Below, one piece after another: positions 2,802-6,389 of a DNA stretch of 6,490 nt. The translations under genes were made by a program, and so were the position numbers. The notes beneath the pieces are model-generated. The model searched no databases and was not told where the DNA came from. It saw only the letters and a program-made list of their open reading frames with translations. Numbering within the stretch: position 1 is the first letter of the stretch; each line of letters starts with the position of its first letter. The stretch lies in assembly GCA_030698575.1 (NCBI GenBank), contig JAUYMQ010000224.1:1-6490 (forward strand), given 5' to 3'. The stretch comes from Deltaproteobacteria bacterium (GTDB taxonomy: Bacteria; JAUYMQ01).

Positions 2802-3806
2802 TCAGTTCGCGAGGTCGCTCATGTACTTCTCGAGCAGCTTCTGCTCCATGCCTGCCGGATAGCTCACGATCGGGTTCGTCACACCGGCTGCGCGGAAGAC
2901 GTCAAGCTTGGCTTTCACGACCTCCATCGGGCCGACGGCCGATGTCGCCTCGACCAGTTTATCGTCGACGGCCATGTTCGCCTCGTCGCGCTTTCCCTCG
3001 TCGTAAAGCTGCTTCACGCGATTCACCTCTGCACCGTAGCCGGCGCGCGTGAGCATCTGCGAGTAGAACTTCCCCATGCCTCCGATGTAGAAGCCCATCG
3101 GCTGCTTGGCGATCACCTTGGCCATCTCGACGTCGTCCATGGCAATGGTCGTGATGTAGGGGGCCACGTCCACCTCTTTCGGATCACGGCCTGAGCGCGC
3201 GACGCCGGCCTCGATCCACTCGATCCCCTCCTTGTACATCTGGATCGGCCAGAAGGTGGGGATCCACCCATCGGCGATCTCGCCCACCATCTCGACGCTC
3301 TTCCTTGCCAGGCTCGCGATGTAAATGGGGACGTTCTTCCGGACGGGCGTGAAGGCGAGTTTGAAGTGCCGCATGTCCTTGTAGATCTCCCCCTTGTGAC
3401 TTGTCAGCCGTTCGCCCGCGAGGAGAAGGCGGACGATCTCCACGTACTCGCGGAGCCGGGTGAGCGGCTTCGAGAAGGGGATGCCGTGGAACCCCTCGAT
3501 GACGTTCTGCCCGCTGGTGCCGAGACCGAGGACGAACCGCCCTTCGCCTATCTCGTCCAGGGTCGCCGTCGTCATCGCCACGAGGGCGGGGCTCCGGCTG
3601 AAGCAGTTCATGATCCCCGTGCCGACCTTGATGCGCTTGGTGTTGAGCAGGATCTCCGTGATGATCGGCACCAGATCGTAGGACCAGGCCTCGGGGATCC
3701 AGAGCGTATCGATGCCTGAATCATCGGCAACCCGGGCGGCGCGGACCATCTCCTTGCGGTCGACCCCCATCCAGAAAATCACCATCGATGTCTTCCTGTC
3801 CGCCAT
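2802..3806 (-). CDS. Luciferase-like (LLM class) F420/FMN-dependent oxidoreductase
   Basis: This is a 334-residue TIM-barrel flavin oxidoreductase of the bacterial luciferase-like family (LLM class). Visible family features are the N-terminal ARVADDSGIDTLWIPEAW (24-41), the barrel-strand loop KVGTGIMNCFSRSP (60-73), where the family has a non-prolyl cis peptide near the cofactor, DEIGEGRFVLGLGTSG (84-99), and YIASLARKSVEMVGEIADG (162-180). The family includes F420-dependent reductases/dehydrogenases and FMN-dependent monooxygenases. The ATDEIGEGRF/GLGTSG pattern resembles members annotated as F420-dependent, but cofactor and substrate cannot be settled from sequence alone. The open frame extends 96 codons further upstream to 4094, but I choose MADRKTS because GAGGAGGA sits 4 nt before it and the upstream part has no family resemblance. 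tldD follows after 29 nt, suggesting cotranscription. Confidence 0.9.
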   Translation of the reverse strand: MADRKTSMVIFWMGVDRKEMVRAARVADDSGIDTLWIPEAWSYDLVPIITEILLNTKRIKVGTGIMNCFSRSPALVAMTTATLDEIGEGRFVLGLGTSGQNVIEGFHGIPFSKPLTRLREYVEIVRLLLAGERLTSHKGEIYKDMRHFKLAFTPVRKNVPIYIASLARKSVEMVGEIADGWIPTFWPIQMYKEGIEWIEAGVARSGRDPKEVDVAPYITTIAMDDVEMAKVIAKQPMGFYIGGMGKFYSQMLTRAGYGAEVNRVKQLYDEGKRDEANMAVDDKLVEATSAVGPMEVVKAKLDVFRAAGVTNPIVSYPAGMEQKLLEKYMSDLAN

Positions 3807-3913: not shown

Positions 3914-3959
3914 CCCGTCGCTTCCGCGCTGTGCCCCGGCATCCCGTCGCTTCCGTGCT
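3914..3959. repeat. Direct repeat pair, 17 nt, 16 of 17 identical
   Basis: CCCGTCGCTTCCGCGCT at 3914-3930 recurs as CCCGTCGCTTCCGTGCT at 3943-3959, a 29-nt period. An inverted third copy lies at 4122-4137 (16 nt, exact to the first copy). The second copy is also the left arm of the long palindrome described separately. Role unknown. Confidence 0.75.
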
Positions 3960-4143
3960 CGGCGGGCCCTGTCCCCGCGCGGCGCGACGGCGGCGCACCC
4001 CCTCGCGCGCCAGCGAAGGTCGCGCGGGTGACGTCTGGAAGCGGACCCCTGCACGGCGACTGGTCGCTGGCGCGCTTCGGGCGCCGCCTTTCACGCCAAG
4101 CGCGCGGGGACTTCCACCTGCGCGCGGAAGCGACGGGATGCCG
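3937..4143. repeat. Long imperfect palindrome (about 207 nt) able to form an extended hairpin
   Basis: Five inverted-repeat stems nest around one centre near 4040. They are 3937-3955 with 4125-4143 (19 bp perfect, CGGCATCCCGTCGCTTCCG), 3971-3981 with 4101-4111 (11 bp), 3989-3996 with 4081-4088 (8 bp), 4005-4016 with 4064-4075 (12 bp) and 4019-4023 with 4056-4060 (5 bp). The coordinate sums of the pairs all fall within 8077-8082, so the stems are colinear rather than scattered. The 32-nt apical region is 4024-4055. High GC makes short stems easy by chance, but not this ordered series. It could be a fold-back/MITE-like element, a structured RNA at the 3' end of the def transcript, or a DNA cruciform. 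No flanking target-site duplication is visible. The 3807-4226 interval has no credible gene; this palindrome and its neighbouring repeats are what it holds. Confidence 0.75.
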
Positions 4144-4158
4144 TGACGTTACGCAGCC

Positions 4159-4200
4159 GGGGGATTGCTTCGTCGGGCCTGCGGCCCTCCTCGCAATGAC
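4159..4200. repeat. REP-like dispersed repeat, copy 1 (long-tip form)
   Basis: This copy has a 16-nt left arm GGGGGATTGCTTCGTC, a self-complementary tip GGGCCTGCGGCCC and a 13-nt right arm TCCTCGCAATGAC. The ends ATTGC/GCAAT are complementary. A second copy with identical arms lies at 5617-5652. This is the widespread bacterial intergenic palindromic repeat that, when mis-translated, yields peptides such as CEERSDEAI or VIARSEATKQS. It lies directly after the def terminator-like hairpin. Confidence 0.85.
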
Positions 4201-4229
4201 ATGCGGCGCGCCGAGCGCGCCGCATGTCA
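4197..4229 (-). terminator. Perfect 15-bp hairpin overlapping the def stop codon, terminator-like
   Basis: Arms 4197-4211 and 4215-4229 are perfect reverse complements (TGACATGCGGCGCGC and its complement) with a 3-nt loop. On the minus strand the first three bases of the stem are the def stop codon TGA. There is no following T tract: the stem runs straight into TTGCGAGG, the edge of the REP-like repeat. It may therefore act as a Rho-linked terminator end or as a 3' stability hairpin rather than a classical intrinsic terminator. Confidence 0.5.
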
Positions 4230-5377: not shown

Positions 5378-5548
5378 TCAGACGGGGTTCACCCTCTTGA
5401 TCTCGCCGGGCAGCAGCACATCCTTCACGGCGAACTTCAGCCGCTTGCGGTTCAGCAGTCTGTGAGCCTTCAGGCAGAAGGGGGAGATCGATTCGAGCGT
5501 GTCAGTCCCGGGGAACTGGTAGAGGACGACTTCCGGGGTTTTGGCCAT
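5378..5548 (-). CDS. Truncated glutathione S-transferase N-terminal domain, 56 residues
   Basis: The product begins MAKTPEVVLYQFPGTDTLES and continues SISPFCLKAHRLLNRKRLKF, then AVKDVLLPGEIKRVNPV and stops. It resembles the first beta-alpha-beta part of the thioredoxin-like N-terminal domain of glutathione S-transferases. SPFC (22-25) sits where the family has its catalytic Ser/Cys, and RVNPV matches the usual NP-x-G-K-x-P junction. A complete domain would continue with the cis-proline strand and a helical C-terminal half, but the frame stops right there. Neither other frame downstream resumes the similarity, because the lipoprotein gene starts 19 nt later. The start at 5548 has a very good GGAGGT site 4 nt upstream. 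In-frame upstream sequence to 5758 is the REP-like repeat and is rejected as coding. It is either a deletion remnant or a retained mini-protein, and function is unknown. Confidence 0.6.
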   Translation of the reverse strand: MAKTPEVVLYQFPGTDTLESISPFCLKAHRLLNRKRLKFAVKDVLLPGEIKRVNPV

Positions 5549-5552
5549 GAAT

Positions 5553-5558
5553 ACCTCC
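5553..5558 (-). promoter_or_regulatory. Ribosome binding site of the truncated GST gene
   Basis: GGAGGT on the minus strand lies 4 nt before the ATG at 5548. The site is as strong as that of the intact genes around it. It sets the start and argues that the fragment may still be translated. Confidence 0.7.
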
Positions 5559-5578
5559 GCGGGCACGGGAAGGCGGCT

Positions 5579-5587
5579 ACCATAGCA
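5579..5587 (-). promoter_or_regulatory. Possible extended -10 element for the gst-lipoprotein-def transcript
   Basis: On the minus strand TGCTATGGT fits an extended -10 (TGnTATNNT) with TATGGT at 5579-5584. No good -35 is visible 16-18 nt upstream. Transcription would start near 5572, leaving a short leader with the GGAGGT site. This is a weak call based on position and the TG extension. Confidence 0.25.
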
Positions 5588-5605
5588 CCGGGGCCGTAAA
5601 ATGGG

Positions 5606-5615
5606 GAGGCGCCTC
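5606..5615. repeat. 10-nt perfect palindrome beside the REP-like repeat
   Basis: GAGGCGCCTC reads the same on both strands and lies in the divergent promoter region, one base from REP-like copy 2. It could be an operator half-site pair or simply part of the repeat's flank. Nothing beyond symmetry supports a role. Confidence 0.35.
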
Positions 5616-5616
5616 G

Positions 5617-5652
5617 GGGGGATTGCTTCGTCGCTTCGCTCCTCGCAATGAC
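5617..5652. repeat. REP-like dispersed repeat, copy 2 (short-tip form)
   Basis: This copy has the same 16-nt left arm GGGGGATTGCTTCGTC and the same 13-nt right arm TCCTCGCAATGAC as copy 1. Only 7 nt (GCTTCGC) lie between them, instead of the 13-nt tip of copy 1. It lies in the 208-nt divergent region 5549-5756, which otherwise holds only promoter-like elements. Its minus-strand translation contains CHCEERSDEAI, a known artefact of this repeat class. Confidence 0.85.
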
Positions 5653-5667
5653 AGTGGCGGTCGGCAC

Positions 5668-5697
5668 TTGACCCCCCCTTCGAGCCCCGCTTATCAT
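5668..5697 (+). promoter_or_regulatory. Candidate sigma70-type promoter for the dehydrogenase genes
   Basis: TTGACC (5668-5673, 5 of 6 to consensus) and TATCAT (5692-5697, 5 of 6) are separated by 18 nt. The start of transcription would be near 5704, giving a leader of about 53 nt before the ATG at 5757. This is the best promoter-like sequence in the window and it sits just downstream of REP-like copy 2. Confidence 0.55.
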
Positions 5698-5756
5698 GGC
5701 GCAGCTTTTTCTCCGGGCGCCGCACTGCCCGCCTAACTCCATCCAACGGAGCGATC

Positions 5757-6389
5757 ATGGCTCACGACACGGCCTCGAAAACCGGGCGCGCCGCCGACGC
5801 GCGGCGTCCCGGCGCTGAGGAAATTTTCGGACCGGCGATGACGCGGCGGGGATTCCTCAAGGGAACAGCGGGTGGAACGCTCGTACTGGGCGCAGCGAGC
5901 CTGCTACCGGCGGGATGCGCTGACTATCCGGCCGCACCGCCGGATCTGAAGGTCTTCAACGCCAAGGAGTACGCGATCATCAACGCCGCCGCCCCGGCTT
6001 ACCTCGGTGTCGACCCTGCCACCGAGGGGGTTGACGTTGCGAAGTTCTTCGACGGTCTCGCCGAGAACTTTCCGCCTCAAATCCTCGATCTGATCAAGCA
6101 GGGCCTGGCCGTATTCGAGCACGCGACGCTGCTCTTCTGCTTCTCGCTGAAGAGCTTCACGCAGATGGACCTTGAGGCGCGAACCTCCTACGCGGAGAGC
6201 TGGGCGACCAGCGGCCTCGGCTTCCGGCGCGCGCTCAACATAGCCGTCCGGAGCATTTGCCTGGCGGGGTACTACCTGCAGCCGGCCACCTGGAAGGAAA
6301 TTCACTACGACGGGCCGTGGCTCGGCAGGGTCGAGGTTCCGCAAGTCGTACAGAGGTTCCCGCTCGACGAAGGGAGTGTGAAGACATGA
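5757..6389 (+). CDS. Gluconate 2-dehydrogenase subunit 3-like protein with Tat signal (small dehydrogenase subunit)
   Basis: This 210-residue protein is the small subunit of a membrane or periplasmic GMC-type dehydrogenase. A twin-arginine signal TRRGFLKG (29-36) is followed by the hydrophobic stretch TLVLGAASLLPAG and Cys54. Cys54 could be a lipidation or processing site, but its context PAGC is a poor lipobox. The mature region shows the family pattern VFNAKEYAIINAAAPAYLG (66-84), SWATSGLGFRRAL (148-160) and AGYYLQPATWKEIHYDGPW (170-188), with the typical YDGPW close. Start 5757 is chosen because GGAG (5748-5751) lies 5 nt upstream. Met28 at 5838 would also keep the Tat signal but has no good ribosome site. 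Its stop overlaps the next gene in ATGA. In characterised FAD glucose and related dehydrogenases this subunit carries the signal for the catalytic partner. Substrate here is unknown. Confidence 0.88.
   Translation: MAHDTASKTGRAADARRPGAEEIFGPAMTRRGFLKGTAGGTLVLGAASLLPAGCADYPAAPPDLKVFNAKEYAIINAAAPAYLGVDPATEGVDVAKFFDGLAENFPPQILDLIKQGLAVFEHATLLFCFSLKSFTQMDLEARTSYAESWATSGLGFRRALNIAVRSICLAGYYLQPATWKEIHYDGPWLGRVEVPQVVQRFPLDEGSVKT

Follow-up and report, generated by a model that had tools for sequence, protein, structure and literature searches.

The palindrome downstream of the peptide deformylase gene (def) is probably one copy of a lineage-specific, non-coding and non-autonomous palindromic interspersed repeat, REPIN-, BIME- or bcr-like in kind, that resides together with REP units in mosaic intergenic regions. 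The general features of palindromic interspersed intergenic repeats, i.e. several copies, intergenic placement, a common and conserved hairpin fold and unrelated flanks, were all observed, as were shortened derivatives and a neighbourhood with REPs; from these we infer the mobility and the function of the element. It is new as a sequence family, previously unlisted, and is not a new kind of system.

The window, i.e. the whole 6,490-nt stretch of DNA analyzed, is contig C432 of a 4.13-Mb genome assembled in 653 contigs. No further member of its phylum was present in the searched set, the phylum search returning this genome only. The gene order on the minus strand is def (stop at 4227), the palindrome, a gene encoding a luciferase-like monooxygenase (2802-3806) and one encoding TldD (1315-2772). 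A promoter-like match (3888-3861, minus strand) was identified between the palindrome and the monooxygenase gene, and no intrinsic terminator was found. This places the palindrome on the 3′ side of def, ahead of a possible promoter of the next gene, and its original assignment to the 3′ region of a read-through def transcript is correct for the minus strand. At 4197-4229 there is also a perfect 15-bp hairpin with a 3-nt loop (TGACATGCGGCGCGC/GCGCGCCGCATGTCA), which contains the stop codon of def and extends into a REP unit.

The whole palindromic unit spans 3937-4146 (covariance-model match of 199.5 bits); being a near-palindrome, it was assigned to the plus strand by alignment. As first described, it is composed of nested inverted pairs with a common centre near 4038-4041. 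The outermost stem comprises 19 exact bp (3937-3955/4125-4143), or 22 bp with one G-U (3937-3958/4122-4143), and is followed inwards by stems of 11 bp (3971-3981/4101-4111), 8 bp (3989-3996/4081-4088) and 12 bp (4005-4016/4064-4075). The fifth, innermost stem (5 bp with one G-U; 4033-4037/4042-4046) was also found, but it does not belong to the conserved part of the structure, since it sits within the variable 32-nt apical loop (4024-4055). The predicted RNA fold of 3937-4143 is, on either strand, one long multi-stem hairpin of 82 pairs. Its free energy is -158.6 kcal/mol for the plus strand, compared with -111.8 ± 4.7 kcal/mol for shuffled sequences (z = -10.0), and -155.2 kcal/mol for the minus strand (z = -10.05), while the DNA fold yielded z = -8.2; none of 200 shuffles was as stable. 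An extra copy of the 5′ outer arm (3914-3930, plus strand; 17 nt, one mismatch) is located 29 nt upstream and is perfectly complementary over its first 16 nt to 4122-4137 of the 3′ arm.

Six near-full copies of the palindrome, about 185-215 nt in length, were identified in the genome by blastn (E value of 2e-42 or better): that of the window and those of contigs C214, C228, C245, C483 and C502. The five others are 82-91% identical to the window core (3945-4129). A covariance model built from the six full copies recovers them at 169-207 bits by construction; independent support for the copies comes from the blastn search, not from the model, whose matches on the reverse strand represent the palindrome itself. 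At least five truncated copies were also found, on C339 (95 nt) and C434 (72 nt) by the covariance model and on C168, C540 and C273 by blastn. The 72- and 95-nt derivatives retain the outer arms without the centre; the copy of C434 is essentially the two outer arms joined through a short loop, and in C339 a second left arm is placed 53 nt upstream of the copy. The short forms may be deletions or may be ancestral. Contig C273 starts inside a palindrome copy (L098, 1-165), in which the left arm forms three tandem repeats of 52 nt.

All copies are intergenic or located at a contig end. Sequences outside the hairpin do not align among the copies, and the flanking genes are unrelated (polyA-polymerase-type protein/M50 protease, AHSA1 region, MscS, ABC1 kinase/periplasmic binding protein, PriA, SRP54 and RecN-like). 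By our reading of the gene neighbourhoods, four of the nine copies with readable neighbours are oriented along the flanking genes, three are opposite to them, and two, both of them short copies, lie between divergent genes. This mixed orientation argues against a directional terminator or a riboswitch-like element. A transcription terminator was dropped as a candidate (no T-run, mixed orientation), and so was a CRISPR-like spacer in the loop, the loops being homologous and about 56% identical. Nearly all copies are on the plus strand of their contigs, though contig orientation should be arbitrary; this may be a chance or an assembler effect.

The proposed search for further copies thus revealed at least 11 places in the same genome, but none in the other genomes searched. 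With blastn, 97 other genomes gave no copy, the sole matches being 31-37 nt long and regarded as chance, and the covariance model with strict filters found no copy in 385 other genomes, a set overlapping the 97. No match to one gapped core pattern was present in GTDB contigs, although this pattern, with its requirement for 22 exact bases, would overlook diverged copies. No copy was detected in viral contigs with three patterns, nor in phages and plasmids with blastn, and comparison with Rfam 15 at gathering and permissive thresholds gave no credible family match. Within the genomes, viral contigs, phages and plasmids searched, the family is, as far as could be seen, restricted to this lineage.

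Three Y1_Tnp (Y1/RAYT-type) genes are encoded in the genome. The DNA examined around them contains no copy of the palindrome, although a partner could be missed in an assembly of 653 contigs, and no transposase gene, searched for as Y1_Tnp, was found beside any copy. A RAYT was rejected as a partner because no copies were found beside the three genes. A palindrome with the sequence CTTAAATAATGGGGTCAGACCCCTTTATTTAAG was noted beside a Y1_Tnp (RAYT-like) gene on C110 (L100, 907-940). No target-site duplications were recognized by eye in the six copies, the ends of which are not sharply defined, and their ends do not share an unpaired GTAG/CGTC (TGTC, CCTC) tag of the kind that flanks the base of 20-40 nt REP hairpins. 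As regards a MITE of a DDE insertion sequence, long inverted arms are present but the outer stem is variable (the transposase search covering Y1_Tnp only).

A TGTC-headed REP unit of the CGTC-REP type (4159-4201, minus strand) is placed 13 nt from the palindrome and is not part of it. CGTC REPs have a CGTC or TGTC head, A-T first pairs and a CC-type tail (PMC3733652). Compared by description, the repeat TGTCATTGCGAGGAGCGAAGCGACGAAGCAATCCCCC, whose translation gives the peptide HCEERSDEAI, fits this type (TGTC head, A-T first pairs, CC tail). Its part CGACGAAGCAATC has 148 matches in the genome (at most one mismatch) versus 2 for the reversed pattern. A REP unit was distinguished near 10 of the 11 palindrome copies, at distances of 0-36 nt in nine cases and of 125 nt in the tenth; the gap of C228 was scored 0 as the padded unit touches the element, the 13-nt match itself being 23 nt away. 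Assuming that such proximity to a REP unit holds for 3-15% of intergenic DNA, the chance of this result is 6e-15 to 5e-8. Permissive intergenic DNA may simply accumulate both repeats, or one of them may be a preferred landing site for the other; in three species, REPs located inside other palindromes have been reported (PMC3733652).

The window contains a second TGTC-headed REP unit (about 5617-5659, minus strand), which is read into a long ORF (5378-5758) as HCEERSDEAI and is located upstream of a start that reads, by eye and with no Pfam match, like a GST/thioredoxin-fold N-terminus. A further common hairpin, CCCGAGGTYCCGCGCGNAGCGCGGGCCGAGA, occurs near a REP unit on C540 (L012, 1351-1382) and C273 (L007, about 223-260), and is possibly another dispersed repeat.

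Alignment of the six full copies (A1) revealed mean pairwise distances of 0.04-0.12 in the inner stems (3971-4023 and 4056-4111), 0.33 in the outer stem and 0.44 in the apical loop, which shows no length change in the six copies while its sequence varies. The outer stem is altered on both sides among the copies and still pairs. Covariation in the stems, a search for which was suggested with the original prediction, was detected: in the consensus structure 94.4% of cells are paired and 11 pairs carry two-sided changes, which was reached by none of 500 shuffles. The window copy accounts for half of the 12 two-sided cells, each of these lying in its outer stem; when this copy was left out, 5 such pairs remained (2 of 500 shuffles), while slid structures, used as a control, gave up to 2, the consensus being favoured in this control as it was derived from the same six sequences. 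Pairing is maintained, but with six related copies of one genome the evidence for covariation is modest. The outer stem of the window copy (3937-3958 and 4122-4143) is unlike that of the other copies and carries six two-sided Watson-Crick changes with no uncompensated change in that stretch; it looks like one block event. Pairing kept by selection on RNA or DNA structure and pairing kept by template switching between the arms both fit these data. In template switching during replication, a single event rewrites one arm with the other as template; compensatory changes in hairpins are documented to arise in this way (PMC8794818). Several internal mismatches are identical in all six copies, which argues against frequent arm-to-arm copying.

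If the hairpin acted as a multi-copy structured RNA, either a small RNA or part of a UTR, its stems would be kept paired by selection; a basal stem and an apical loop that vary are found in many structured RNAs. The two-sided changes, with or without the window copy, are consistent with this explanation, and so are the conserved inner stem sequence, some conserved internal mismatches and the loop fixed at 32 nt despite its divergence. We nevertheless consider it unlikely. No Rfam family matches, nothing outside the hairpin is conserved among the copies as a promoter or terminator, orientation to genes is not fixed (two short copies even lie between divergent genes), half of the compensated cells originate from one copy, and one-sided changes on the plus strand show no G-U preference (4 G-U versus 11 A-C). 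The compensatory changes leave some room for the structured RNA proposed at the outset, for which neither a conserved promoter nor a fixed orientation to genes was seen.

The element could instead act at the DNA level, as a cruciform or a binding site for a nucleoid or topology protein, its compensatory changes resulting from template-switch repair of a quasi-palindrome. Gyrase at BIMEs is a precedent for a topology protein on such palindromes. The near-symmetric design without orientation preference would suit such a site, as would the window copy, in which the outer stem is fully compensated in a block-like manner, and the extra arm complementary to the 3′ arm, a pattern that template switching is known to yield (PMC8794818). 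However, about six full copies in 4.1 Mb are few for a genome-wide organising site, and frequent arm-to-arm copying would erase the mismatches common to all copies, which makes this explanation improbable.

A previously undescribed two-part REP-plus-palindrome mobile unit, in which a structured module (RNA or single-stranded DNA) is inserted specifically next to REPs, appears improbable; the module would be formed by the conserved inner stems, the covarying basal stem and the fixed-length, variable 32-nt loop, and could serve e.g. as a substrate of a hairpin-handling enzyme. Chance pairing, to which the high local GC content lends a raised background, can practically be dismissed, since it is refuted by the shuffles (z of about -10 on both strands, none of 200 as stable) and by homologous folded copies elsewhere in the genome; the original prediction was to be refuted by a folding energy no better than that of shuffles together with a lack of homologous or covarying copies, and neither was the case.

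As a palindromic interspersed repeat, the element would be non-autonomous and would most likely be multiplied by a transposase that acts in trans on its single-stranded hairpin form; three Y1/RAYT-type genes are present, to which no link was found. It would land in or beside REP-bearing intergenic DNA. Once inserted, it would become part of read-through transcripts, e.g. that of def, in which a hairpin of this stability could stop 3′ exonucleases, a role generally ascribed to REP/BIME hairpins. Template switching, with one outer arm serving as template for the other, probably restores the pairing of these arms, at least in the window copy. Among the three options offered originally, the fold-back mobile element comes closest, given the dispersed places, unrelated flanks and short derivatives, its mobility being deduced from these. 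Against a mobile repeat, no target-site duplication was recognized, no empty site was found, and no copy was seen next to a transposase gene, searched for as Y1_Tnp. Conservation is much lower in the outer stem than in the inner ones, in contrast to the ends of a usual DDE-type MITE. The conserved inner stems in combination with the diverged loop point to long-term constraint, which is not required of a purely selfish repeat.

With this palindrome, an interspersed repeat family is added for a lineage of which the searched collections contain almost no relatives. Its tight neighbourhood with CGTC-type REPs, which are reported to lack a dedicated transposase (PMC3733652), offers a concrete starting point for understanding the accumulation of such repeats in mosaic intergenic regions, and the window copy is a good natural case of fully compensated stem replacement for testing the template-switch model.

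REPINs are REP doublets mobilised by RAYTs, and the palindrome resembles them (PMC3116915) in being a non-autonomous, intergenic element of inverted repeats with a less conserved spacer and one predicted hairpin, and in the occurrence of tandem arm repeats. Unlike REPINs, it has multi-stemmed arms of about 85 nt rather than short REPs, and is present in about 6-11 copies, with no common GTAG/CGTC end tag and no RAYT found beside a copy. The neighbouring repeat fits the type of CGTC-tagged REPs (PMC3733652), whereas the five-stem palindrome is a separate sequence and not a REP unit. The bcr1-bcr18 elements of Bacillus cereus (PMC6542083) are similarly interspersed elements of one lineage (100-400 bp) with mobile-element features, but their host is unrelated and, in a comparison by description only, no TTTAT-like motif or duplication was seen here. 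Compared likewise by description, the palindrome is similar to the stem-loop families distinguished by Cozzuto et al. 2008 in 40 genomes, this lineage not being known among them, which are repeated, mostly intergenic and share a common predicted secondary structure (PMC2267715).
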